Virus record (IMG/VR): IMGVR_UViG_3300030109_003790
Span: 1-22,500 of that record
Length of the DNA: 22,500 bases
Reading direction: 5' to 3' (one strand)
Source: a virus
The position numbers and the translations under genes were made by a program. Below the pieces are notes generated by a model. It did not search any database. It had not been told where the DNA came from and saw only the letters and a program-made list of their open reading frames with translations. Positions within the stretch are counted from its first letter, which is position 1, and every line of letters starts with the position of its first letter. Below, piece after piece: positions 1-22,272 of the stretch.

Positions 1-12
1 TACCATATGGTA
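1..12. promoter_or_regulatory. CCATATGG palindrome (copy 1)
   Basis: TACCATATGGTA is a perfect 12-base palindrome and the first of the repeated intergenic boxes. The left flank lies outside the window, so its CCAAAG arm cannot be judged. No CTTTGG arm is seen to the right. Confidence 0.5.
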
Positions 13-385
13 CGATTCTTATAAGATATATCGTAAACGAGCGAATGAATAGTTTTAAATGGAAGATTTATCTTCCTTTAATACTGTTAAGGATATGTGA
101 ATAATATATCCTGAGTGAGTGAAATTACGGATATCTTATATATGGGAGTTACCTTAAATAATTTGAGGGACAATTTAGGTCAGTTGCTGTATTCTTTAAG
201 CAAATGCAAAGAATATCGCGCCTTCCTCATATACACACCCATATGATTGGGTAAGGGTTTTTAGGTCTGCGTATAGCAGAAATACCGTTAAGAAAACCCC
301 ACAATCTCAAAAATAGGGCCAAGGCCTAACCCTTAAATGCCTAGTGTTTTATGAAATAAACAAGTAATTTCAAAAACACCCCATG

Positions 386-410
386 ACCATATGGTAATAT
401 AACACTTTGG
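386..410 (-). promoter_or_regulatory. CCATATGG dyad element (copy 2)
   Basis: ACCATATGGT at 386-395 is followed ten bases later by CTTTGG at 405-410. Read on the minus strand this is CCAAAG-N10-CCATATGG, the same order seen upstream of other transcription units. It sits between the terminator hairpin of the minus-strand operon and the hairpin-rich segment 1-380. Confidence 0.55.
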
Positions 411-419
411 GATTATATT

Positions 420-431
420 GCCCCGAAGGGC
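420..431 (-). terminator. UUCG hairpin after minus-strand operon
   Basis: On the minus strand this reads GCCC-TTCG-GGGC, a four-pair GC stem with a UUCG tetraloop, ten bases past the last stop codon of the operon (441). The same 12-mer occurs on the plus strand at 3804-3815, also directly after a stop codon. No long U-tract follows, so it may stabilise or process the 3' end rather than be a classical intrinsic terminator. Confidence 0.5.
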
Positions 432-440
432 GTAATTAAT

Positions 441-551
441 TTATTTTATGTAATAAGCAGGAATTCTACCACCTTTTACACATTTGGGGCAATAATATGC
501 TCTACCGCCCCATTTCATTCTTTCTCCACAATCCATTGTTTTACATTTCAT
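441..551 (-). CDS. Small zinc-ribbon-like protein, 36 aa
   Basis: This short frame is the last gene of the minus-strand operon. Its ATG overlaps the TGA of the preceding gene (ATGA, 551-548), the same coupling used throughout the operon. The product has C3-x4-C8 and C21-x2-C24 with basic residues between and after them, a plausible single zinc-ribbon knuckle. It ends ten bases before the UUCG hairpin. Function is unknown. Zinc knuckles of this size in viral early operons may bind nucleic acid or protein, but nothing here decides which. The exact ATGA overlap and the cysteine pattern are the main reasons to believe it is real. Confidence 0.6.
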   Translation of the reverse strand: MKCKTMDCGERMKWGGRAYYCPKCVKGGRIPAYYIK

Positions 552-769
552 TCTTCTTCATCCCCTGTTATTACCCAATCTGCATGATGATACATTTTAT
601 CCATAATATCTTCAATTCCTTTTTTAACAGGAATTCTCATTCTAGATACATCTCTCAAGTTTTGAGCAATTTCTTCTTTTGCTTCTGCTCGTCTCATTCG
701 CCTATCTTCGTTCTTAATTTCTGCTCTTCCGACAAATCGCCCTTTTCCTGTTTTCTTTGTTGAACCCAT
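548..769 (-). CDS. Hypothetical charged protein, 73 aa
   Basis: An unrecognised protein with a basic, glycine-containing N terminus (residues 1-18), a strongly charged Arg/Glu helix-prone middle (about 19-45) and an acidic C terminus ending in D-E-E-E. It starts in a TAATG junction with the stop of the 152-aa gene and ends in an ATGA overlap with the 36-aa zinc-ribbon gene, so all three are translationally coupled. The opposite-strand frame at 497-763 is a low-complexity shadow. The basic segment could contact nucleic acid, but this is inference. Confidence 0.7.
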   Translation of the reverse strand: MGSTKKTGKGRFVGRAEIKNEDRRMRRAEAKEEIAQNLRDVSRMRIPVKKGIEDIMDKMYHHADWVITGDEEE

Positions 770-1227
770 TATTCTTCCTCCCTTAAATCAATCAATTCTA
801 ATTTTCCTGTTTCGCTGTTTCGCTTGAATTCAAATACTCCTTCCTTTACTCCTTTACGGATTTTGCGAGTTATTGTGTGATAAGTCAAATCTTGATAATA
901 CTCTAAAGTCATTATTTTTCCTCCATTTCTTGTATGGCTCAATAAATAATCTCCAGCAATATCCCATGCTGCTTTAGCCGCAGCATAAGACATATCTTTC
1001 AAATCTTCCAAATCCTCATCTAATTGTGAACGTGGTCTACGGGGTACAGTATGTTCTCGCATTAAAAGAATAACACTATCATATATCATCTTTCTTCCAT
1101 AATAGTCTTGTTCATCCCAACGCTTCAAGTACGCTTCAATAATTTCAACAGTTTCCTTTAATTGCATTTCTAAACTATAGTTTAAACATCGAGTTATACC
1201 TTCAAACATCATTTTACTTGACCTCAT
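769..1227 (-). CDS. Hypothetical protein, 152 aa, possible winged-helix C-terminal part
   Basis: The largest gene of the minus-strand operon. The N-terminal two thirds look mainly helical and charged. The last 45 residues (Y-H-T-I-T-R-K-I-R-K-G, then an F-E-F-K hairpin-like stretch and L-E-L-I-D-L) read like the recognition helix and wing of a winged-helix domain, but no family was recognised. The ATG at 1227 overlaps the TGA of the 39-aa gene. A later in-frame Met (residue 6) is possible, but the ATGA overlap favours the first. A DNA-binding or regulatory role is a weak inference. Confidence 0.7.
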   Translation of the reverse strand: MRSSKMMFEGITRCLNYSLEMQLKETVEIIEAYLKRWDEQDYYGRKMIYDSVILLMREHTVPRRPRSQLDEDLEDLKDMSYAAAKAAWDIAGDYLLSHTRNGGKIMTLEYYQDLTYHTITRKIRKGVKEGVFEFKRNSETGKLELIDLREEE

Positions 1228-1343
1228 TCTTCTTCCTCCAATTCTCCTGTTTCTGGATTTAGTTTCATTCCAGCAATTGCCATAAGAATAGCAAAAGCAT
1301 GTTCCTCATAAGTTAGCCTATCAGTTGATTCCGTTGACGTCAT
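1224..1343 (-). CDS. Hypothetical protein, 39 aa
   Basis: A short frame preceded by a very strong Shine-Dalgarno (AGGAGGAAAA, eight or so bases before the ATG at 1343). It ends in an ATGA overlap with the 152-aa gene. The product has a central hydrophobic helix-like stretch (A-F-A-I-L-M-A-I-A-G-M, residues 16-26) and an acidic tail. The hydrophobic run is too short for a confident membrane segment. It overlaps the end of the 53-aa gene by 23 bases in another frame. Function unknown. Confidence 0.6.
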   Translation of the reverse strand: MTSTESTDRLTYEEHAFAILMAIAGMKLNPETGELEEEE

Positions 1344-1482
1344 TAAATTTTCCTCCTTTTTCAATAGAAACCTTACCACAATTAAAACAACCAAGATAAA
1401 CAGTGTATTTCATTCCCCAACGTGGGTGATAATCCCACTCTCTATCCACTTCAACAATAATCTTATTATTACAACAATTCAT
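1321..1482 (-). CDS. Small zinc-ribbon-like protein, 53 aa
   Basis: The ATG at 1482 overlaps the TGA of the upstream 67-aa gene (ATGA). The protein has C3-C4 near its start and C32-x2-C35, with an aromatic middle (W16, Y18, W22, Y26, Y29). This suggests a zinc-bound beta-ribbon. It is the second such small cysteine protein in this operon. Its 3' end carries, in another frame, the SD and start of the 39-aa gene. Function unknown. Confidence 0.6.
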   Translation of the reverse strand: MNCCNNKIIVEVDREWDYHPRWGMKYTVYLGCFNCGKVSIEKGGKFNDVNGIN

Positions 1483-1682
1483 GCTTTCACTTCCATTTTA
1501 CCAATTTCAATTCTTAGTTTCATTTCATCAAATTCCTCTAAAGCCTGTTGAGTCAATTCCATCAACTCTTCTACCGTATCAGACTTAACAGTTAATTCTT
1601 TAATAATCAAAGTACCATATCTGTCATGGCCGACTTTCAAGGAATATTTTTTCTCTTGTATTTCTTCTTTTTTCCAAAACAT
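1479..1682 (-). CDS. Hypothetical protein, 67 aa, paralogue of the gene at 3913
   Basis: First gene of the six-gene minus-strand operon. Residues 15-32 carry the core K-V-G-H-D-R-Y-G-T-L-I-I-K-E-L, followed by V-K-S-D-T and a helix. The same core is present in the 65-aa protein encoded on the plus strand at 3913-4110, and both begin M-F-x-(K/R)-K. The predicted fold is a short beta-hairpin plus helix. The CCATATGG dyad at 1751-1760 lies about 70 bases upstream of the start and is the likely promoter or operator. Function unknown. Confidence 0.75.
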   Translation of the reverse strand: MFWKKEEIQEKKYSLKVGHDRYGTLIIKELTVKSDTVEELMELTQQALEEFDEMKLRIEIGKMEVKA

Positions 1683-1731
1683 TTAATCAAATCCTGTTAT
1701 TGACAATTAACAACTTAGCCCACATTATACC

Positions 1732-1793
1732 TTGGGGCATACAAAGTACCACCATATGGTGTGGTTTAAACTTTGGGGTAAACAAGGCCCCAA
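1732..1793 (-). terminator. Long-range stem enclosing the dyad box, after the 134-aa gene
   Basis: TTGGGGC at 1732-1738 can pair with GCCCCAA at 1787-1793, which directly abuts the stop codon of the minus-strand gene 1794-2198. The loop contains the CCATATGG dyad. A shorter GGGG/CCCC pairing inside is also possible. This could be a terminator or a structured operator; the sequence does not decide. Confidence 0.3.
1742..1776 (-). promoter_or_regulatory. CCATATGG dyad element (copy 3, two-armed)
   Basis: CAAAG at 1742-1746, CACCATATGGTG palindrome at 1750-1761 and CTTTGG at 1771-1776 form an almost complete dyad. It lies in the gap upstream of the six-gene minus-strand operon that starts at 1682. 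It is one of the clearest copies of the repeated element. Confidence 0.65.
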
Positions 1794-2198
1794 TCAAAAT
1801 AATTGAGAGAAGCACTTTGCACCGATAATTTGCCCTTTATCGTTTCTAACGGTTTGACCGACCATTAGAAAATCAGTGCGATTGTGAAATGTTTCGCAAA
1901 CTGCGCGTGAGACAATATACCACACATTATCACGGATAGGTGGCAACTCAACACAGTCCATTTTCATTTGAACGCATTTAATTGGAATAGTGAATTCAGC
2001 ATCAAGAACAGTACAATCGCTTAGAGGTTCATAATCAGTATCAAAGGAAAATTCACCCAATGGCCCCCATTCTTCAGAAAGCCGAATAGTATTACCTGAT
2101 GGTGGAATAGAAAGTAGTTCGTGTCCCTTTTCGTTAACAATGTTAATTACGTGGGGTGTCATGTTTACAAATGTTTGATTGTCTTCATAGATTGTCAT
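1794..2198 (-). CDS. N(L/M)TPH-type conserved protein of unknown function, 134 aa
   Basis: A single-gene unit. The pattern T-P-H-V-I-N-I (residues about 14-20), P-P-S-G with a following Arg (about 32-39), Y-I-V-S-R (about 94-98), then R-T-D-F and V-R-N-D-K-G-Q-I-I-G-A matches a small beta-rich protein often seen in phages and actinobacteria, whose members usually read NLTPH near the N terminus. I know of no established function for that family. The length is typical. The ATG at 2198 is preceded by an AGGAG-like SD on the minus strand (acaggagatgcta). The dyad at 2252-2286 lies upstream. The TTGGGGC/GCCCCAA stem begins right after the stop. Confidence 0.75.
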   Translation of the reverse strand: MTIYEDNQTFVNMTPHVINIVNEKGHELLSIPPSGNTIRLSEEWGPLGEFSFDTDYEPLSDCTVLDAEFTIPIKCVQMKMDCVELPPIRDNVWYIVSRAVCETFHNRTDFLMVGQTVRNDKGQIIGAKCFSQLF

Positions 2199-2251
2199 AT
2201 TAGCATCTCCTGTAATATAACAGACTTTATTTCATTTTACTTATGAGATTG

Positions 2252-2286
2252 CAAAGCACATCATATGGTTGTAATGAAAACTTTGG
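2252..2286 (-). promoter_or_regulatory. CCATATGG-like dyad element (copy 4, two-armed)
   Basis: CAAAG at 2252-2256, TCATATGG at 2261-2268 (one mismatch from the palindrome) and CTTTGG at 2281-2286. It lies about 55-60 bases upstream of the minus-strand start at 2198, a distance similar to that at the 1682 and 3913 genes. Confidence 0.55.
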
Positions 2287-2289
2287 TGA

Positions 2290-2755
2290 AATGAAACCAC
2301 AAAAAAATAAAGGAAATCCGCAGGTTTGCCAATTAGTGCATATTGCATTCTCCAATACTTCCAGTGATTATCGCGCGATTTCACTGTTCTTTGTCTGATA
2401 CAAGTCGCTATCAGTTTATTGACCTAACTGCTTCATTCCCGTCGGGGAAAAAGAGGTGTCGATGGGATTACGCCGGATAAGCGCCTTCGCCATAAGTTTT
2501 CTTCGTATCTCCTAGAATTCTTTTTCTTGAATTATAGTCTTCGATTACTTCCAACCACCCCACTAGAGCGTTATACTCCCTAATGTTCCACTGACCGCGC
2601 TACACGGTGATAACCGAAGTTATCTTGTTCTCAGCCATTTGGCCATCAAACATTCCTGCTAAGGAATCTCGGAGGTGTGCATTATCCCTGATAAAGAGAT
2701 TATTCTGCCACGACGAATGCTGAAGCCGCTAAGCCTCAGACAATAAAGGGAATTA
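2290..2755 (-). ncRNA. Candidate large structured non-coding RNA, about 450 nt
   Basis: This segment is visibly richer in G and C than its surroundings and has no uninterrupted gene of useful length. It is packed with stems: CAGTGA/TCACTG at 2362-2386 with inner ATC/GAT, CTGATA/TATCAG at 2395-2414, TTCCC/GGGAA at 2436-2449, ACCG/CGGT near 2594-2608, GATAAC/GTTATC at 2609-2624, and ATTCC/GGAAT near 2651-2668. On the minus strand the 2609-2624 stem is GATAAC-TTCG-GTTATC, a C(UUCG)G tetraloop, which favours a minus-strand transcript. The dyad copy at 2925 is oriented to drive that strand. It was not recognised as RNase P, tmRNA, rRNA or an intron. The size recalls ornate large phage RNAs such as GOLLD or ROOL, but no match is claimed. 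Confidence 0.45.
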
Positions 2756-2774
2756 AATTATATGGTAAATATAG

Positions 2775-2798
2775 GGTTGCCAAAGACAACCATATGGT
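2775..2798 (+). promoter_or_regulatory. CCATATGG dyad element (copy 5)
   Basis: GGTTG at 2775-2779 and CAACC at 2787-2791 form a hairpin whose loop contains CCAAAG (2780-2785). ACCATATGGT follows at 2789-2798. The 33-aa membrane-peptide frame starts 2 or 17 bases downstream. The related GGTTGGTT hairpin at 3329-3351 has the same layout. Confidence 0.6.
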
Positions 2799-2814
2799 CA
2801 TGCATTTATGCATT

Positions 2815-2916
2815 ATGACCTCAATAATTAGGGCTATCTTGAATTTGATAATATCAGTAATAACAGGCGTATTTATATCCTCCCTGTTTGCGTTATTCTT
2901 ATATTTAATCTCATAA
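2815..2916 (+). CDS. Predicted tiny membrane protein, 33 aa
   Basis: A short frame whose product is almost entirely one hydrophobic helix: residues 7-32 are Ile, Leu, Val, Phe, Ala and Ser with only N10, T17 and Y30 as polar breaks. K/R is limited to R6. This fits a single transmembrane segment. An in-frame ATG at 2800 would add five residues and would sit immediately after the dyad box, allowing a nearly leaderless transcript. No good SD precedes either start. It is followed by another dyad box at 2925, so it would be a one-gene unit. A chance hydrophobic frame in AT-rich DNA is the main alternative. Confidence 0.4.
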   Translation: MTSIIRAILNLIISVITGVFISSLFALFLYLIS

Positions 2917-2924
2917 TTCTTAAT

Positions 2925-2953
2925 ACCATATGGTTGGTAGTTTAATAACTTTG
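2925..2953 (-). promoter_or_regulatory. CCATATGG dyad element (copy 6)
   Basis: ACCATATGGT at 2925-2934 with CTTTG at 2949-2953. On the minus strand the order is CAAAG-N15-CCATATGG, which would point toward the candidate structured RNA at 2290-2755. Confidence 0.5.
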
Positions 2954-2984
2954 TGAGTATTTAAACGTAAACCCCAAATTGGGA

Positions 2985-3011
2985 GGGGATGGCTTGTCGA
3001 AGCGCATCCCC
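2985..3011 (-). terminator. Strong GC hairpin after the 81-aa gene
   Basis: GGGGATG-GCTT at 2985-2995 pairs with AAGC-GCATCCCC at 3000-3011, eleven pairs with one bulge and a four-base loop. It lies 24 bases beyond the stop of the minus-strand gene at 3035 and probably ends its transcript. A second small stem, CCCAA/TTGGG, lies at 2973-2983. Confidence 0.6.
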
Positions 3012-3034
3012 CCCGCTAAATCAACCAGAGGTGG

Positions 3035-3280
3035 TCACTGAATTGAAATCTTTTTCACCGAAAACGGTGAATTGGACATCTCAGAAATAATTTCCTGAAA
3101 TCGTTCTGCATTCTTGCCACGCTTCCACCCGACTAGTCGAGCAATTTCGTGAGCAAGGTTACTCATGCGGTATCTCTCCTGTTGTGAAATATAGCGATTA
3201 GCGCTACTCTCATAACGGAAAAATCCGTAACTTGTTGTCTTTCCTTCTCTGTTCTGCTTTACTACTTCATACACATACAT
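3035..3280 (-). CDS. Hypothetical protein, 81 aa
   Basis: A single-gene minus-strand unit, divergent from the gene pair at 3425. The product starts with a beta-like stretch (M-Y-V-Y-E-V-V-K) and continues with basic helical segments rich in Arg, Asn and Ser. No family was recognised. A GAGGTGT sequence on the minus strand, about nine bases before the ATG at 3280, serves as SD. The two-armed dyad at 3337-3371 lies in the shared divergent control region and a strong hairpin follows the gene. A small early-phase virus protein is the most that can be said. Confidence 0.65.
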   Translation of the reverse strand: MYVYEVVKQNREGKTTSYGFFRYESSANRYISQQERYRMSNLAHEIARLVGWKRGKNAERFQEIISEMSNSPFSVKKISIQ

Positions 3281-3328
3281 CTTAATACACCTCTTAGGTA
3301 TCTATTGATTTAATTTAGACGATATTAG

Positions 3329-3371
3329 GGTTGGTTCCAAAGAAACCAACCATATGGTAAGAAATCTTTGG
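3329..3371. promoter_or_regulatory. CCATATGG dyad element (copy 7, two-armed, divergent promoter region)
   Basis: GGTTGGTT at 3329-3336 pairs with AACCAACC at 3344-3351. CCAAAG is at 3337-3342, ACCATATGGT at 3349-3358 and CTTTGG at 3366-3371. It sits between the divergent genes starting at 3280 (minus) and 3425 (plus) and could serve both. A further small inverted repeat (ATACCT/AGGTAT, about 3384-3404) lies between it and the plus-strand start. Confidence 0.65.
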
Positions 3372-3424
3372 TTACGCACCTTATACCTAGATTCATCAGG
3401 TATTAGATACTAGGAGCGATAAAT

Positions 3425-3616
3425 ATGGAATTAGAGTATAAGACAATAGAAGAAATGCACGCGATGACAAAAACGGAATTACAGGCTTATGAGAGCCTAG
3501 TTTGGAAGCACTATATGGATATTTCGACAATCAAGAAATATATCGACAGAATTGGCCACCCTAAGTTATTGGGCGCACCAGTGGTTGAAGTAGAATTTCA
3601 GGAGGAAGAAGAATGA
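3425..3616 (+). CDS. Hypothetical protein, 63 aa
   Basis: First of a coupled gene pair. The product is helical and charged, with a helix-prone N-terminal half (T-I-E-E-M-H-A-M-T-K-T-E-L) and an acidic end of four Glu. An AGGAGCG SD lies about six bases before the ATG. Its stop overlaps the start of the next gene (ATGA at 3613-3616). It is driven from the two-armed dyad about 55-75 bases upstream. No family recognised. Confidence 0.7.
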   Translation: MELEYKTIEEMHAMTKTELQAYESLVWKHYMDISTIKKYIDRIGHPKLLGAPVVEVEFQEEEE

Positions 3617-3801
3617 GTAAATTTCAAAGGAGACATTATGAAGCAATTGCTGAAGTTCTCGGCCTTATGGTTGATGAGCGAATTCGTAATTATTGCATCG
3701 CTCACTTCAGCATGATGTTTGAACGTGACAATTCACGGTTTCAACCTGATAGGTTCCGTGAAAGGGTCAAACAGCACGCTGATGGCATCATTATGCGTTA
3801 A
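3613..3801 (+). CDS. Small conserved phage-type protein (RRHYEAIAEVL...DNSRFQPDRF), 62 aa
   Basis: The order F-Q-R-R-H-Y-E-A-I-A-E-V-L (residues about 4-16), an F-x-x-M-F helix, then D-N-S-R-F-x-x-D-R-F (about 38-48) matches a widespread small phage protein that typically reads H-Y-x-x-I-A ... D-N-P-R-F-D-x-x-R-F. To my knowledge its function is not established. The length is normal for that group. Translation is coupled to the 63-aa gene, and a UUCG hairpin follows the stop by two bases. It is one of the few left-arm genes with a recognisable family. Confidence 0.75.
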   Translation: MSKFQRRHYEAIAEVLGLMVDERIRNYCIAHFSMMFERDNSRFQPDRFRERVKQHADGIIMR

Positions 3802-3803
3802 GC

Positions 3804-3815
3804 GCCCTTCGGGGC
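3804..3815 (+). terminator. UUCG hairpin after the 62-aa gene
   Basis: GCCC-TTCG-GGGC begins two bases after the stop codon at 3801. It is identical to the minus-strand hairpin at 420-431. No U-tract follows, so it may act as a 3'-end stabiliser or a partial terminator. Confidence 0.5.
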
Positions 3816-3827
3816 CACTTATATCCA

Positions 3828-3864
3828 CAAAGTTAATATACGTGTACCATATGGTTGTGCTTTG
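3828..3864 (+). promoter_or_regulatory. CCATATGG dyad element (copy 8, two-armed)
   Basis: CAAAG at 3828-3832, ACCATATGGT at 3846-3855 and CTTTG at 3860-3864. GGTTG (3853-3857) can also pair with CAACC just downstream. It lies about 58 bases before the start of the 65-aa gene at 3913. Confidence 0.6.
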
Positions 3865-3912
3865 AACAACCCTATCAAACGATAGTTATTGTTGTCAATA
3901 ACGGTGAGAACC

Positions 3913-4110
3913 ATGTTTAGTAGAAAAAAAGAAATCGTAGCAATAAATAGTGAATCAAAAGTAACCCTCAAAGTAGGCCATGACAGAAATGGCACTTTAA
4001 TTATCAAGGAGTTGGCCGTCAAAGGTGACACAATTGATGAGGTAATAGAAAGAACAAGAGAAATGTTGTCAGAGTTTAATATGATGACAATTGATATGAA
4101 GGTGGCTTAA
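3913..4110 (+). CDS. Hypothetical protein, 65 aa, paralogue of the gene at 1479
   Basis: The core K-V-G-H-D-R-N-G-T-L-I-I-K-E-L-A-V-K is nearly the same as in the minus-strand 67-aa protein, so the two are diverged paralogues on opposite strands. The frame is open from 3889, but the ATG at 3913 is preferred. It gives the shared N terminus M-F-x-(K/R)-K-K-E-I and has a GGTGAG SD five bases upstream. It is followed without any gap by the 81-aa gene at 4111. Function unknown. Confidence 0.75.
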   Translation: MFSRKKEIVAINSESKVTLKVGHDRNGTLIIKELAVKGDTIDEVIERTREMLSEFNMMTIDMKVA

Positions 4111-4356
4111 ATGTATAAGAGAGAAAGAAAACTTGAAACCCATCATTTCTGTGAATGTGGTGGTATGGTATTGAACCATATTACTGAAAAGGCACAGGTT
4201 GCTGGTGGATGGCCTATGCAGGTCAAAAGCATCGGTATTTGTGAATGTGGTTCTATCCATTGGCGTAAAGACCTAACAAACTACGCTAAGGAAGAATACC
4301 GACTCTATCTGAAAGAATCAGAGAACAGTAGAAAGAAACATCTTAAACTAAGATGA
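4111..4356 (+). CDS. Zinc-ribbon-like protein, 81 aa
   Basis: Two C-x-C knuckles, C14-E-C16-G-G and C44-E-C46-G-S, are spaced as in a two-hairpin zinc ribbon. H11 and H12 precede the first knuckle, and a basic, helical C-terminal tail follows (residues about 50-81). The start ATG follows the previous stop directly (TAAATG). The gene ends in a UUCG hairpin. Compact C-x-C ribbons of this kind occur in transcription-factor-like and RNA-binding proteins, so a nucleic-acid role is possible but unproven. Confidence 0.7.
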   Translation: MYKRERKLETHHFCECGGMVLNHITEKAQVAGGWPMQVKSIGICECGSIHWRKDLTNYAKEEYRLYLKESENSRKKHLKLR

Positions 4357-4357
4357 C

Positions 4358-4377
4358 GGGCTTCGGCCCACATGGGC
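4358..4377 (+). terminator. Two alternative hairpins after the 81-aa gene
   Basis: GGGC (4358-4361), TTCG, GCCC (4366-4369) form a UUCG hairpin just after the stop. The same GCCC can instead pair with GGGC at 4374-4377 across an ACAT loop. The two stems exclude each other. A similar ACAT-loop stem recurs at 11183-11196, again shortly upstream of a CCAAAG...ATATGG element. Confidence 0.5.
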
Positions 4378-4381
4378 TATT

Positions 4382-4437
4382 CCAAAGTAATACCATATGG
4401 TTGTGTAAAACCTCGATTTATCCAACCATATGCTTTG
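4382..4437 (+). promoter_or_regulatory. CCATATGG dyad elements (copies 9 and 10, paired)
   Basis: CCAAAG at 4382-4387 and ACCATATGGT at 4392-4401 are followed by a second, degenerate box ACCATATG at 4425-4432 and CTTTG at 4433-4437. CATATGGTTG (4396 on) and CAACCATATG (4423-4432) form a ten-base inverted repeat joining the two. This is the last cluster before the late genes and probably controls the 4440-4945 leader or the late operon. Confidence 0.55.
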
Positions 4438-4945
4438 TATCCAAAAATTAAACAAATAAAATTAATGCTGATTAGGCTCTAAATGGTCAGTTTCGACATA
4501 AGTTTATTCCCTAGATAGGAGCATTTATACCTAGATGAAATACTGCTGAATCAGGAGGCATTAGCGAGTTTAATGTATGTGAAAAGTAATCTGTATTATG
4601 TTTAATCTTATTACACTTTCAGAAGCACTACGGCCCTAGTTATCAATCAATACAAACTAGATAAAGGCCCATTTAGTCACAGCGCGTGTTATAAAATCAA
4701 TTAAAAAAATAACATTTCTTGTGACCTTTTCATTCAATTGTTTTAACTTAAACAACATATTAGCATTAGTTTAAACATAACTACCTGATTTGAACTGTTA
4801 TAATTGAAAGTCCTATTCTTATACTGGAAATAGATTGATTTTATTTAAAACTTTTTTGCTAGTCCCTCACAAATCGCAGCCCAAATTTTGAAAAACTGTT
4901 TTAAAATGGCTTAAAAAAATTTCTCAGAAAATTTTGGTGAATATT
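4438..4945. other. AT-rich non-coding leader before the late cluster
   Basis: No gene longer than about 15 codons with a plausible start was seen. It holds an AGGAGG at about 4554 without a useful frame after it. CTAGTT/AACTAG (about 4636-4660) is flanked by GGCC on both sides. A nested inverted repeat, GTCAC...TGTTA / TAACA...GTGAC, spans 4676-4725 and has a TATAAAA in its loop that could be a TATA-type promoter. The last 80 bases are poor in G and C and lead into the first late gene. It could be a long 5' leader, a late promoter region or an origin; nothing decides. Confidence 0.4.
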
Positions 4946-17611: not shown

Positions 17612-18838
17612 ATGGACGAATCTGAAGGTATTCATGGCCCGGTTAGTGAGCAAGTAATTGCTTCATTATTCGAGAAACATCATGGGCCTAATGTGTACAA
17701 TATGAGGGAAGGTAGAATTCCTAGTTGGTACACAGATAACATGCAATATTTTTATGAAATTTATAAGGGTAAAATATTAAGCACTCTTGGATATATTGAT
17801 AAACTAACTTACTATATTTTGGGTGGAGCATTTGTTTATAGTAAATGGAAAAGCGATTCTGGTTATTTTGGTAAACCTCTTAATAAATTAATGGGGTTAA
17901 GAGAAACTAAACTAAAAAGGGATTTGCCTAAAATAGCAGGATTTAAATATACTGGACCGGTTACTCCTGATAGAAACCAAGAAACGTATGTCGAGATGAT
18001 GAGTCAATATTACGATATAGACCCTGTTGATACTAAAGGTATTCCTGAAGATATGGTTGATAATTTTAGTAACAGATACCCAAATGCTTGGGGAGTTAGA
18101 ATAAATGGTGATTCAGATAGTTTGGAAAGAATGGCTAAAGGTCTTTCTGATTGGTTTTCTAGTAGTTGGTGGGATGTAGTTAAGGTGCAAGTGTTAGATA
18201 CTAGTACGGGAATACAGTCTATTAATGAACCTATGATAGAGGATAAGGATTGTTATAACAAATTGATGCAAAAGATGGAAAGTTGGTTATTTAATCCAAA
18301 ACTAGTATCTTTAGAAATAACTGAAACTTATTTAGATAATGTTGTAGAGTTTAGTCATCCTAGTCGAGCAAAACCGGGTGATGTTAAACAGCGTAATAGT
18401 GAACATAGGAAGCGAGGAAGAATTATTGAAGACTATTCTTCAAACGAAATGAAATACCCCTTTAAACCCAGGGATGTTGAATTAGAATTTTATGGTGTGA
18501 TTTTTGAACAAAACTGGGATACAAGAGAGTATGAACAAATATCAGAAGAGGATGCTTGTACAATTTTAGAAATATTTGATTTGTTAAAATCTGCTAACAA
18601 CTCGACTGAGGGAACTTTGAATGGCTTAAAATACAATTATTATCATTATTCTAGAGCCCCTGTTAGAACTAAAAAGGGCATTGAAGAATCGCGCGAATTA
18701 GTTATTGAACGTGAATTAGGCACAAAATATAAAAGGTCGCAACCTTTATTAGATTTAGATACACGCTTAATTTTTAATTATGGTGTTATTATTAATCTTG
18801 GTGAAGTTATTAGAAGTTTAGATTTCCTTAAGTGGTGA
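17612..18838 (+). CDS. Two-domain late protein with an internal extended tag, 408 aa
   Basis: Starts M-D-E-S-E-G-I-H, untagged. Residues 1-180 form an aromatic, helical first domain. Residues 185-191 read S-W-W-D-V-V-K, followed at once by V-Q-V-L-D-T-S-T and S-I-N-E-P-M (to about 210), then E-D-K-D-C. This is the same long block found at the N termini of the five following paralogues. The second domain (210-408) is different from theirs. The protein looks like an untagged domain fused in front of a member of the extended-tag family. SD GAGTGAT lies upstream of the ATG. Function unknown. Confidence 0.75.
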   Translation: MDESEGIHGPVSEQVIASLFEKHHGPNVYNMREGRIPSWYTDNMQYFYEIYKGKILSTLGYIDKLTYYILGGAFVYSKWKSDSGYFGKPLNKLMGLRETKLKRDLPKIAGFKYTGPVTPDRNQETYVEMMSQYYDIDPVDTKGIPEDMVDNFSNRYPNAWGVRINGDSDSLERMAKGLSDWFSSSWWDVVKVQVLDTSTGIQSINEPMIEDKDCYNKLMQKMESWLFNPKLVSLEITETYLDNVVEFSHPSRAKPGDVKQRNSEHRKRGRIIEDYSSNEMKYPFKPRDVELEFYGVIFEQNWDTREYEQISEEDACTILEIFDLLKSANNSTEGTLNGLKYNYYHYSRAPVRTKKGIEESRELVIERELGTKYKRSQPLLDLDTRLIFNYGVIINLGEVIRSLDFLKW

Positions 18839-18843
18839 TTGTT

Positions 18844-19347
18844 ATGGGTTGGGAAGATATACTAAAGGTTCAGATTCTTGATACAAGTACAGGACTAAGT
18901 TCAATTAATGAACCGATGATTGATGAAGATAAAGAAAAATGTTGCTTGAAGGCATATGAAAATTTTGTAACACTTTTATGTTTTTATGCTACAAAGGATG
19001 AAAATAATATAGGATATATAAAATCAAGATTAAGCGGAACTGATGAAGATTGGGATAATTACATTAACCACATTATTCAAGGTAGTCGAGCGACACTTGA
19101 TGTATTAGCAGAAGATATGGGAATAGGTATTATAGATGGGGAAAAATTATGTACAAATAGTAATGCTCCTAATTTTGATGCTAATCTTTGCGATAAATTA
19201 GAGCAAGTTATGGAAGATGCTAAAGAGTATTTTTGGGGTGTGTTTGATAAATTTCAAAATAATACAGTTCCCGGTGCTACTGCCTATGACATTTTTGATA
19301 TAATTAAAATTATATTTAAAGAATGGGAGGATTGTGAAAATGCTTGA
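18844..19347 (+). CDS. Extended-tag cysteine protein 1, 167 aa
   Basis: Longest of the five paralogues. It starts M-G-W-E-D-I-L-K, followed by V-Q-I-L-D-T-S-T and S-S-I-N-E-P-M, then an acidic run and a C-C pair at about 36-37. The middle has additional Cys (E-K-L-C and N-L-C-D-K-L) and helices; the end is E-W-E-D-C-E-N-A. Four conserved Cys positions could bind zinc or form disulfides. The ATG at 18844 follows SD GGTGA at 18834-18838; the frame opening at 18832 is rejected because it would bury the tag. The W-E-D-C codons contain the SD of the next gene. Confidence 0.75.
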   Translation: MGWEDILKVQILDTSTGLSSINEPMIDEDKEKCCLKAYENFVTLLCFYATKDENNIGYIKSRLSGTDEDWDNYINHIIQGSRATLDVLAEDMGIGIIDGEKLCTNSNAPNFDANLCDKLEQVMEDAKEYFWGVFDKFQNNTVPGATAYDIFDIIKIIFKEWEDCENA

Positions 19348-19684
19348 TTGGAAAGAGATTCTTAAGGTTCAGGTATTAGATACCTCTACAAGTTTATCTA
19401 CTATTAACGAACCTATGTTAGATGACGATAATAACTGTTGTGATGAATTAAAGGAAAGATTAATTGACTGGTGGAAAGAATGGGTCGATTTGGGTGATAA
19501 ATTTACATATCGAGATGATATGGATATGTTTGAACAACATACATTGTGGATAAGGAAAAAGACTTGTGATGAACTTTTAGATTGGTTTGAAAGTGAAATT
19601 AGAGATGGGGATAAAAATATTATAGGTTATATGTATCTTGTAGAAACATTTATGAAATATGAAGATTGTCTTTTGGGTGAGTAA
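19340..19684 (+). CDS. Extended-tag cysteine protein 2, 114 aa
   Basis: Starts M-L-D-W-K-E-I-L-K, followed by V-Q-V-L-D-T-S-T and S-T-I-N-E-P-M. An acidic D-D-D-N-N leads to the C-C pair. The middle holds a Trp-rich helix (W-W-K-E-W) and T-C-D-E-L-L-D-W-F. It ends K-Y-E-D-C-L-L-G-E: the Cys anchor is kept although here the codons do not supply the next SD (a GGGTGAG further on does). A GTG start at 19334 is possible but less likely. Starts inside the end of gene 1. Confidence 0.75.
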   Translation: MLDWKEILKVQVLDTSTSLSTINEPMLDDDNNCCDELKERLIDWWKEWVDLGDKFTYRDDMDMFEQHTLWIRKKTCDELLDWFESEIRDGDKNIIGYMYLVETFMKYEDCLLGE

Positions 19685-19685
19685 T

Positions 19686-20018
19686 ATGTGGCAAGATATT
19701 TTAAAAGTTCAGGTATTAGATACTACTAGTAGTTTATCTAGTATAAATGAGCCTATGATGGAAGATAAAGATTGTTGCGAATTAGCGCGTGAGAAATTTC
19801 TTGAAGAACAAGCAAATTATTATGACGATAAAATATATATTGATTATATTGAAGAAATACTTGGTCTTACGAATTGTAAAACATTTAGAGAAATATTGCA
19901 AGATGTGAAAAATAGCAATCAAGCCCCGCATCTTGGCGGGCGATATAGAAAAGAACAACCAAAATCAAGTATACCGTATCTCAATACACTTCGTTTTTGG
20001 GAGGAATGTGAGAAATGA
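19686..20018 (+). CDS. Extended-tag cysteine protein 3, 110 aa
   Basis: Starts M-W-Q-D-I-L-K, the shortest lead-in to the tag: Trp is residue 2. It is followed by V-Q-V-L-D-T-T and S-S-I-N-E-P-M, then E-D-K-D-C-C. The middle contains N-C-K-T-F-R-E-I-L-Q and a Gly/Arg/Lys-rich loop (G-G-R-Y-R-K); it ends F-W-E-E-C-E-K. The longer frame from 19659 would start inside gene 2 and bury the tag, so the ATG at 19686 is chosen. An ATGA overlap links it to gene 4. Confidence 0.75.
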   Translation: MWQDILKVQVLDTTSSLSSINEPMMEDKDCCELAREKFLEEQANYYDDKIYIDYIEEILGLTNCKTFREILQDVKNSNQAPHLGGRYRKEQPKSSIPYLNTLRFWEECEK

Positions 20019-20416
20019 ATTGGGAAGATATTTTAAAAGTCCAAGTCTTAGATACTACCACTAGTTTATCTAGTATAAATGAGCCTATGATGGAAGATAA
20101 GAATTGTTGTGAAGAGGCAAAAGAGGAATGGATAGCAATAGTAAGACAGGATATTGGTCAATATGAGGGTTATGATATTCCGCCCGGAGGTTATTTGCCG
20201 GGCGAAACATTAGAAAATACAAGCATTATTTATCGTTATGAAAATATGTCCTGTGAAGAATTAAGAGGGATATTGGAAGATATTAGTGGTAAAAAACCCG
20301 GTCGTCTGTATAATATTCACTATACTCAAAGGAAGAAAGATTTCGGTATTCCTACTATGCTTCATCGGCGTGGTAAAGATTTATTGACAGGTTGGGAGGA
20401 GTGTGAAAATGAGTAA
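20015..20416 (+). CDS. Extended-tag cysteine protein 4, 133 aa
   Basis: Starts M-N-W-E-D-I-L-K, followed by V-Q-V-L-D-T-T-T and S-S-I-N-E-P-M, then E-D-K-N-C-C. Its DNA over the tag is close to that of gene 3, so these two probably duplicated most recently. The middle has a Pro/Gly-rich stretch (I-P-P-G-G-Y-L-P-G) and M-S-C-E-E-L-R-G-I-L-E-D-I. It ends G-W-E-E-C-E-N-E, whose codons contain the GGGAGG SD for gene 5. Function unknown. Confidence 0.75.
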   Translation: MNWEDILKVQVLDTTTSLSSINEPMMEDKNCCEEAKEEWIAIVRQDIGQYEGYDIPPGGYLPGETLENTSIIYRYENMSCEELRGILEDISGKKPGRLYNIHYTQRKKDFGIPTMLHRRGKDLLTGWEECENE

Positions 20417-20828
20417 TTGGGAAAATATTCTTAAGATTCAAGTCTTAGATACTACTACTGGTTTATCTAGCATTAATGAACCTATGGTCGAGGATGAACC
20501 AAATTGTTGCGAAATAGCCATAGATGCATATGAAGATTTAATAGTCGAATATTCCCATATGGGAAAGAGTGAAGATGAGAGAAGATGGGCTAAAGAGGCT
20601 TGGGACGACTATATTTTTATATTAAAAGAATATGGTTCATATAATACTTGGACAATACAGGAACATTTAGAACATAGAAAGGGTGGATTAAATGAAAAGA
20701 CTTGTGATTTTTTTTGGTGGTATTTAAACGAATTCAACAACGACCTCCATAGAATGAATGAAGTCGAAGAAATAAGGAACCAAGTAAAAGATATACTTAA
20801 TAATTGGGAGGAATGTAAAAATGAATGA
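20409..20828 (+). CDS. Extended-tag cysteine protein 5, 139 aa
   Basis: Starts M-S-N-W-E-N-I-L-K, followed by I-Q-V-L-D-T-T-T and S-S-I-N-E-P-M, then E-D-E-P-N-C-C. The middle is Trp- and Tyr-rich and contains E-K-T-C-D-F-F-W-W-Y-L. It ends N-W-E-E-C-K-N-E, and the W-E-E-C codons hold the GGGAGG SD for TerL. A GTG at 20403 is a less likely start. It overlaps gene 4 and terL by eight bases each. A perfect TCCCATATGGGA inside this gene is coding and lacks the CCAAAG/CTTTGG arms. Confidence 0.75.
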   Translation: MSNWENILKIQVLDTTTGLSSINEPMVEDEPNCCEIAIDAYEDLIVEYSHMGKSEDERRWAKEAWDDYIFILKEYGSYNTWTIQEHLEHRKGGLNEKTCDFFWWYLNEFNNDLHRMNEVEEIRNQVKDILNNWEECKNE

Positions 20829-22272
20829 AGAAATGGATTCATTAGATTTCTCTACGGAGATGGATTTGGAAATTTCTAAAACGTCTTTTCCGTATTTCTT
20901 TACTCAAGTATTGGGATATGATTTTGCACCGTTCCATGAAGAATGGTTAGAAACAATTAATACTACATCTAGAACAGTTATTATTTGTTCTCGTGACCAC
21001 GGTAAATCAGTATTTATGCACGCTTGGGCAGTATGGAATCTTTGTTTCCAACCCCCACCATATCAAATGCTATACATTTCTTCTAACCATAAGCAGACTA
21101 TGGTTCACATGAGAGACATCGACAAGTTATTCAATAAACCAGCCTTAACAAAATTTAGACCAAGTAGAGGTTGGGCTATGGGTAATATGCAATTGACCAA
21201 TGGCAATTCTATTCTTGAACGTTCAGTTGGTTCTCAGATTCGTGGTCTTCACCCTCAAGAAATTATTATTGACGACCCTTTGAAAGAGTTTAGTTTAGCC
21301 GCTATTAAACGTGTAACTGATTGGTTCTTTGGTGATATGATTCCGACCTTGCACCACACGGCATCGTTAAGAATGATTGGTACACCCTTTACATATACAG
21401 ATATTTTTACAGTTCTTGAGGAAAATGAGGCTTATACAGTAAATAAATACCCCTGCCTTAACCAGTTAAATGAACCACTTTGGCCTGAGCGTTGGGGTTA
21501 TGATGCTCTTATGCAACGTAAAGCAGAAGTTGGCTCTATGAAATTTACGCGTGAATATATGTGTATACCAATTTCAACAGGTACATCTTTATTCAATCCT
21601 GAACATTTAGATGCTTGTAAGGAATTAGGTAAAAAAGACATATTGAGAATGAGAGAAAGGAAAGATAAGGGTTACAAATACTTTGTTGGAGTTGACCCTG
21701 CAATTTCTACTGATGGTGACTATAACGTAATTATTGTTTTAGAAGTAGATGAAAATAAAAATAAAAGAATTATTTTCGTTGATAGGCAAAAGAATGTAGA
21801 GTTTAGAGAAAATATTAATAAATTAAAACTAATAGGTCAATTATTTAAACCTGAGTGTATTTACTTAGAAACAAACACGTTTGCTAAATCATTTACTCAA
21901 GAATTAAGAGACATTACAGACTTAAATGTGCGAGACTTCACTACTACTAGACAAAAGAAACAAGAGATTATATTGAACTTGCAGATGAATATTGAGAATC
22001 ATAAGTTAATTTTCCCAAGAGGTAATGATGAGTCAAGAAGGGTCACAGATAACATTTTAGACGAATTATCAATGTTCGCCATCACCGACAGCGGTAAGTT
22101 TGAAGGTGTCGGCGCACACGACGATTTGGTAATGGGGCTTGCCCTTGCGAATGCTGCTACACATCAAGATACTGATATTTTCTTATTATTGGATGATTTA
22201 GACATTTTTGGCACAAGTGAACCAGTAAAAACTGATTACAGAGGAGGTGGAGTTCTTGGTCTTAACATCTGA
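20821..22272 (+). CDS. terL: Terminase large subunit (TerL), 483 aa
   Basis: The DNA-packaging motor of tailed viruses: an ATPase that drives DNA into the prohead and a nuclease that cuts it. Residues 57-63, S-R-D-H-G-K-S, are the Walker A loop in the terminase form (R-x-x-G-K-S). I-I-I-D-D at 148-152 is Walker B; a T-x-x-R/G-T-P-like coupling segment (M-I-G-T-P) lies at about 180. The RNase H-like nuclease follows: D292 in V-G-V-D-P-A, E350 in Y-L-E-T-N, and D434/D435 in H-D-D-L-V-M-G-L-A. Length is typical. It lacks the W-x-x-I-L-K tag, as expected for a motor that docks transiently. SD GGGAGG lies in the preceding gene. Confidence 0.93.
   Translation: MNEEMDSLDFSTEMDLEISKTSFPYFFTQVLGYDFAPFHEEWLETINTTSRTVIICSRDHGKSVFMHAWAVWNLCFQPPPYQMLYISSNHKQTMVHMRDIDKLFNKPALTKFRPSRGWAMGNMQLTNGNSILERSVGSQIRGLHPQEIIIDDPLKEFSLAAIKRVTDWFFGDMIPTLHHTASLRMIGTPFTYTDIFTVLEENEAYTVNKYPCLNQLNEPLWPERWGYDALMQRKAEVGSMKFTREYMCIPISTGTSLFNPEHLDACKELGKKDILRMRERKDKGYKYFVGVDPAISTDGDYNVIIVLEVDENKNKRIIFVDRQKNVEFRENINKLKLIGQLFKPECIYLETNTFAKSFTQELRDITDLNVRDFTTTRQKKQEIILNLQMNIENHKLIFPRGNDESRRVTDNILDELSMFAITDSGKFEGVGAHDDLVMGLALANAATHQDTDIFLLLDDLDIFGTSEPVKTDYRGGGVLGLNI

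Follow-up and report, generated by a model that had tools for sequence, protein, structure and literature searches.

The window analysed here comprises the first 22,500 nucleotides of the IMG/VR virus record IMGVR_UViG_3300030109_003790, and our subject is a short repeated sequence, hereafter the element, that lies between the small genes of its left arm. The octamer CCATATGG occurs there in eight exact copies, at positions 3, 387, 1752, 2790, 2926, 3350, 3847 and 4393, all of which extend to the decamer ACCATATGGT (at 2, 386, 1751, 2789, 2925, 3349, 3846 and 4392), which we call the core. An earlier note on this DNA had reported eight exact copies within the first 4.4 kb, and its positions proved correct to a base or two. 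By shuffling, 0.33 octamers are expected in the whole window, and the nine seen were reached in none of 100 shuffles. The ninth, at 20555 within gene 20403-20828, is not part of a core, and is the single further exact copy inside a gene that had been noted. The core is absent from the remainder of the 42,892-base record beyond 2-4401, where the reversed control also gave zero. Degenerate copies are present where the note had placed them, at 2261 (TCATATGGT, with two arms) and at 4425 (ACCATATGC followed by TTTG). The intergenic placement also holds, no copy lying inside a supported gene and that at 2261 overlapping just an unsupported frame of 51 residues. Flanking arms, CAAAG on the left and CTTTG on the right, stand on both sides at close range at 1751, 2261 and 3349; the same had been claimed for 3846, where the left CAAAG is 13 bases away. 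The copies at 386 and 2925 have the right arm only, and those at 2789 and 4392 the left arm only.

The window begins within the hub, as we term the region that separates the replication genes from the structural genes in its virus group, and along it elements (given here without strand) alternate with transcription units. The core of element A (2-11) is at the contig end, where arms are not visible, and element B (386-412) consists of a core at 386-395 and a right arm CTTTGG. Element C (1742-1776; CAAAG, core 1751-1760, CTTTGG) serves the minus-strand gene 1479-1682, a 67-residue member of hub family 1, which is present in 25 of 26 hubs, and a TATA-like GTATAAT at 1724-1730 (minus) faces this gene. 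Similarly, the degenerate element at 2251-2285 serves the minus-strand gene 1794-2198 (134 residues, resembling phrog_30542 of unknown function), whose TATA-like sequence is AATCTCATAAG at 2240-2250 (minus). Element D (2780-2798) has a CCAAAG arm and a core at 2789-2798; beside it a promoter of the type ACCY(Y)ATAWW, hereafter C-TATA (CCCTATATTT, 2766-2778, minus), is directed into the gene-free interval 2750-2290. Element E (2925-2953) has its core at 2925-2934 and a distant right arm CTTTG. Element F (3337-3371), the window's sole complete arm-core-arm copy at strict spacing, is by its flanking sequence bidirectional, serving leftward the minus-strand gene 3035-3280 (family 10, 81 residues) with C-TATA CCCTAATATC at 3321-3330 (minus), and rightward the plus-strand two-gene unit 3425-3801, with C-TATA ACCTTATACC of gene 3425-3616 at 3378-3387 (plus). 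The second gene of this unit, 3613-3801, belongs to family 2 (FQRRHY..). Element G (3846-3864; core 3846-3855 and CTTTG) precedes C-TATA AACCCTATCAAA at 3868-3880 (plus) of the plus-strand gene 3913-4110, a second copy of family 1 with 65 residues from its inferred start. Element H (4382-4401; CCAAAG and core 4392-4401) forms the right edge of the hub, followed by the degenerate H' at 4425-4437. Distances from core to start codon are 62-69 bases in four cases (2261 to 2198, 1751 to 1682, 3349 to 3280 and 3349 to 3425) and 57 bases from 3846 to 3913, within the 55-75 bases given earlier.

Two further observations concern the intergenic DNA of the hub. The 550-base stretch 2200-2750 is without supported genes and is 93 % identical in two relatives (L199 and L230). 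With element D and its C-TATA directed into it, it may encode a non-coding RNA or a long leader; its predicted folding is not clearly better than that of shuffled sequences (z -1.4). The analysis as a whole gave no Rfam or tRNA matches. Small hairpins of the CCCTTCGGGG type often end hub genes beside an element (418-433, 3801-3816 and 4356-4371) and are possible 3' end signals.

The terminase gene at 20821-22272 places the window among marine viruses: its relatives, 60-95 % identical, lie on IMG/VR contigs of marine origin that reach 103 kb. Relatives with near-complete genomes code for a split family-B polymerase, RFC, an ATP-dependent ligase, an XPF-like nuclease and ribonucleotide reductase as well as a complete TFB. 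The replication genes fall outside the window's own 42.9-kb fragment, and the split polymerase, RFC, ligase and TFB are those seen in relatives sharing its terminase. The International Committee on Taxonomy of Viruses (ICTV) links Aoguangviridae and other magroviruses to Poseidoniales and describes their genes as lying in two blocks transcribed in opposite directions (PMC10768690). The gene content of the window's group fits this description, and we assign it provisionally, on sequence grounds, to 60-100 kb marine archaeal viruses matching Magrovirales; none of the named magroviruses turned up in the phage set searched. Gene and start-codon calling was mechanical and records may be incomplete. 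Most hub gene families (98 of 131) are singletons, some of them possibly spurious frames, and three recur, of about 170, 67 and 60 residues. For a 73-residue hub gene, a protein scan for close relatives returned one locus.

Among the records of 49 relatives, the core was found in 32, in up to 10 copies and almost always within one stretch of 3-6 kb, and the reversed decamer in none. Nearly every record that reaches the hub has a cluster of 3-10 exact cores, and many of the records without one are short. The arms were analysed in 31 relatives' regions and the window, reduced to 26 non-redundant regions, in which CAAAG was found no more than 15 bases from the core on 224 of the 324 sides, where 5 would be expected, preferably at a gap of 4-8 bases and with T as the next base in 73 % of cases. 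Addition of loci from a pattern scan gave 393 non-redundant sites, 344 of them with at least one arm (213 with both, 131 with one). The full element can hence be written CAAAG-N4..8-ACCATATGGT-N4..8-CTTTG; beyond the arm, the outward strand often carries a C-tract that abuts a TATA box. In its CAAAGT..ACTTTG form the full element was found in 95 viral stretches, and across 84,980 bacterial and archaeal genomes, searched for exact copies of the full form, in one contig only (L215). This match lies in the coding sequence of a transporter-like gene and was rejected as a host element, being a chance match. The same terminase family is encoded on 37 of 50 element-bearing viral contigs tested and on 29 of the 30 longer than 60 kb. 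The earlier note had proposed, as a check, enrichment in the intergenic regions of relatives; it is found, and favours the finding.

The position of the element relative to genes is equally regular. For 106 hub genes with homologues, an element stands just upstream of 68, and another 24 lie downstream of a gene in the same direction, as in an operon. The ATG codons that open frames of 38 codons or more are sharply concentrated 45-53 bases from the core, with 141 in three bins of 3 bases compared with about 5 per bin just before. When the 175 ATG codons of this leaderless class were aligned, a C-tract appeared at -31 to -28, an AT-rich or TATA box at -27 to -22 and, in 86 %, a pyrimidine at -1; a Shine-Dalgarno motif was absent upstream. 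The CTTTG arm at about -42 to -38 is close to the C-tract, and the whole element spans about -70 to -38, adjoining the B recognition element (BRE) and TATA box. By sequence, these starts look as expected of a leaderless archaeal TBP/TFB promoter, with a TATA box near -25, an initiator-like pyrimidine and transcription that would begin at the A of the ATG. In 30 of 61 cases, 24-28 bases separate ATA from ATG, and a second class is seen near 61-73; the starts of this second class are placed about 40 bases further on and are often preceded by GGAG. C-TATA is 13-fold denser near elements than elsewhere, with 13 of 15 occurrences pointing away from the element. Among 353 conserved genes of the replication block, one is preceded by it and 68 % carry a Shine-Dalgarno-like motif instead; the hub promoters therefore form a class of their own.

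We consider it highly probable, from these regularities of sequence, that a virus-specific regulator binds the element, which is situated directly upstream of the BRE/TATA region of archaeal-type hub promoters. The regulator, probably dimeric, would bind the symmetric element on the upstream side of the BRE/TATA and drive most of the small-gene units of the hub between the replication and structural blocks of magroviruses. Owing to its symmetry the site could serve a promoter on one side, on the other or on both, and the hub genes may constitute one co-regulated class used in host take-over. Both the binding of the element by a protein and the viral coding of that protein are inferred: a dimeric DNA-bound protein best accounts for symmetry without covariation (see below), and the restriction of the element to viruses makes a virus-encoded regulator likely. 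According to the earlier note, a viral or host regulator, a virus-specific promoter and replication iterons would each fit. The enrichment in relatives, the fixed spacing to TATA box and start and the virus-only distribution strongly support the virus-specific promoter or regulator, and the host regulator is weakened, as no copy of the full element other than by chance was found in the cellular genomes. Given a regulator, activation is somewhat favoured over repression by analogy, because the position of the element matches that of the upstream activating sequence (UAS) of GvpE beside BRE/TATA.

Several points weigh against this interpretation. The core-to-arm spacing varies from 3 to 10 bases, and arms and the outer C-tract occur often, too, on sides without a called gene start. 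Of the 106 hub genes with homologues, 14 lack both an element and an operon partner where these would be expected. The window's own promoters have a TATA-to-ATG distance near 41 bases and are not of the leaderless class; the window genes would therefore have short leaders. As the viruses are uncultured, transcription starts are inferred from sequence, and start codons were called mechanically. Finally, no binder was found, nor any universal helix-turn-helix (HTH) protein. Amongst the candidates, a two-HTH protein of record G045 was rejected as it was found in 1 of 34 records, and no HTH or winged HTH (wHTH) matches were obtained for the hub representatives scanned, which cover part of the hub genes. 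Hub families 0 and 1 are candidate binders. The AlphaFold model of the former is a helical protein (predicted local distance difference test score, pLDDT, 89), that of the latter a beta-beta-alpha protein (pLDDT 78); neither has a significant structural match or a meaningful sequence relative in the PDB. A search with the universal 82-residue protein encoded immediately beside the hub found no relative. A PC4-like transcription coactivator is encoded in 11 of 12 genomes (Pfam PC4, 1.4e-4 and 1.9e-4; L218:10601-10840 and homologues). This assignment is weakly supported, and since PC4 proteins are known chiefly for binding single strands, the viral protein would fit a palindrome poorly. A viral TFB is present in 23 of 34 records (in 21 of the 23 that exceed 70 kb) and in all 12 of the replication blocks sampled. 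It could explain the unusual C-rich BRE; by itself it does not explain a palindrome centred about 55 bases upstream of the start.

The main rival to a regulator that activates is an Aca-like repressor of early genes: the hub genes would be early genes with strong promoters that a virus-encoded protein later shuts off through the palindrome. The small, mostly lineage-specific genes under one common sequence (98 of the 131 families being singletons) do resemble the early genes of SIRV2, whose later repression has been attributed to Aca8 acting on the regulatory sequence (PMC11065993). Yet the site lies upstream of BRE/TATA, the position of the activator GvpE (PMC4390858), and not over it or the start, and no conserved wHTH/HTH protein was found among the hub representatives scanned; we regard such a repressor as rather unlikely. 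A replication origin, with the copies as iterons or initiator boxes, would account for the single cluster per genome at the point where replication and structural blocks diverge, and the cumulative GC skew is minimal at the cluster, though gene direction by itself accounts for that. The copies are neither tandem nor phased, however, being irregularly spaced at about 50 to 2,600 bases, and they alternate with genes, have TATA boxes directed away from them and keep fixed distances to start codons. The iteron option of the earlier note is accordingly disfavoured, and an origin seems to us improbable. Still less credible is an RNA hairpin, in which the dyad would act in transcripts as a terminator or processing site. 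The outer, inner and core arms do form inverted repeats, and hairpins of the CCCTTCGGGG type stand at the ends of many hub genes beside an element. Against this, the arms of a site are as complementary to each other as arms swapped among the sites of one genome, and the gap on the left does not match that on the right in length (correlation -0.28, then -0.13 on a larger set). The hairpin was rejected by a covariation test on arm and flank positions, because the paired arm bases do not covary within sites.

Recombination deserves separate consideration, as gene order in the hub has changed at elements. Between records L107 and L109, a 738-base unit between two elements is inverted, its four ends lying within 15 bases of an element centre and its neighbours remaining collinear. 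A 640-base cassette likewise has opposite orientations in L113 and L204, its ends lying no more than 6 bases from element centres. Compared with L230, the window blocks 234-396 and 388-2747 are swapped in order and inverted relative to the right flank, with the junction at element B. As the breakpoint statistics include overlapping records of the same contigs, we relied on such individual clean cases. They could be read as evidence that a site-specific recombinase acts on the palindromes to invert or exchange cassettes, the promoter spacing being secondary. However, records about 92-95 % identical are collinear, and the shuffling is therefore slow rather than a frequent switch; no identifiable integrase is recorded for the family by ICTV (PMC10768690); and ordinary recombination between repeated promoters accounts for the breakpoints, so that a dedicated recombination site appears as improbable as an origin. 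A symmetric promoter, judging from its arrangement, would let a unit work in either orientation. Tentatively, and with a chance slightly above that of the repressor, the element may be both an orientation-independent switch and an exchange joint, recombination at the palindromes shuffling and flipping host-takeover genes under one viral regulator.

Other features were noticed in these genomes. All 12 near-complete relatives encode a ThiF/E1-like protein (Pfam 3.8e-18; L218:6985-7575, record G045) and a Prok-JAB-like protein (L218:8453-8962, record G045), and 11 of 12 encode a ubiquitin-like protein of 66-80 residues, mostly ending in VGG plus 1-2 residues (ThiS 0.0044; L218:2245-2445). Together these form a possible virus-encoded ubiquitin-like conjugation set. 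At 4815-4911 of the window, a conserved non-palindromic block, CTGGAAATAG ... TTTTTGCTAGTCCC.CACAAATTACAGCCCAAATTTTGAAAAA, lies directly before the first structural gene in many relatives and is a candidate late promoter, leader or origin. Between 5089 and 20416, a short peptide M(S/N/G)W(E/K)DILK begins, or occurs within, many structural-side proteins and looks like a common targeting or cleavage tag. A longer repeat, WEDILKVQVLDTTTSLSSINEPMMED, is common to six successive proteins at 18165-20510, mostly at the N-terminus, the protein bodies being otherwise different.

Magroviruses infect archaea that rank among the most abundant in surface seawater; nothing was found on magrovirus gene timing. 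A binding site for a virus-specific regulator would define a regulon of about 5-10 units per genome, mostly of small unknown genes, which by analogy with Sulfolobales viruses are anti-defence candidates. The element can be used to list hub genes in any assembled relative and may serve as a specific bait for the viral regulator, along with a test of whether the virus-encoded TFB reads the C-rich BRE. In the open-access literature searched we found no description of a promoter motif for Poseidoniales viruses, and a magrovirus survey (PMC10160649) mentions neither promoters nor motifs.

Comparable arrangements are known from other archaeal systems. SIRV2 and other archaeal viruses have a conserved early-gene regulatory sequence comprising a purine-rich BRE and a TTTAWATA box (PMC11065993), and as in the magroviruses one common promoter-bearing sequence stands before many small, poorly conserved viral genes. 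The magrovirus site differs in being a symmetric composite, C-rich at -31 to -28 with a short AT box at -27 to -22, in tailed marine archaeal viruses; for SIRV2 the early timing is known. In halovirus HF2, promoter activity resides in intergenic repeats that carry a TATA box at -26, and those of class II work in reverse as well (PMC8707807), again a case of conserved intergenic promoter repeats in an archaeal tailed virus; they are distributed across much of the HF2 genome, and their description includes no palindromic core flanked by paired arms. The GvpE UAS of haloarchaea is bipartite, adjoins the BRE and serves two divergent promoters through a dimeric activator, a short distance between UAS and BRE being important (PMC4390858). 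The magrovirus element is also directly beside the BRE and serves divergent promoters, although the GvpE system is cellular, at one locus, with 20-nt sites made of two 8-nt parts 4 nt apart, and its activator is leucine-zipper-like and recruits TFB/TBP. No GvpE-like protein came up in the magroviruses, where no search aimed at one was made. Replication iterons share with the element the confinement of a repeated motif to one genome region, but the magrovirus copies are not tandem, not phased and each tied to a promoter. What is new relative to the SIRV2-type and HF2 sequences is a symmetric, two-sided element in an unstudied and abundant order of viruses.

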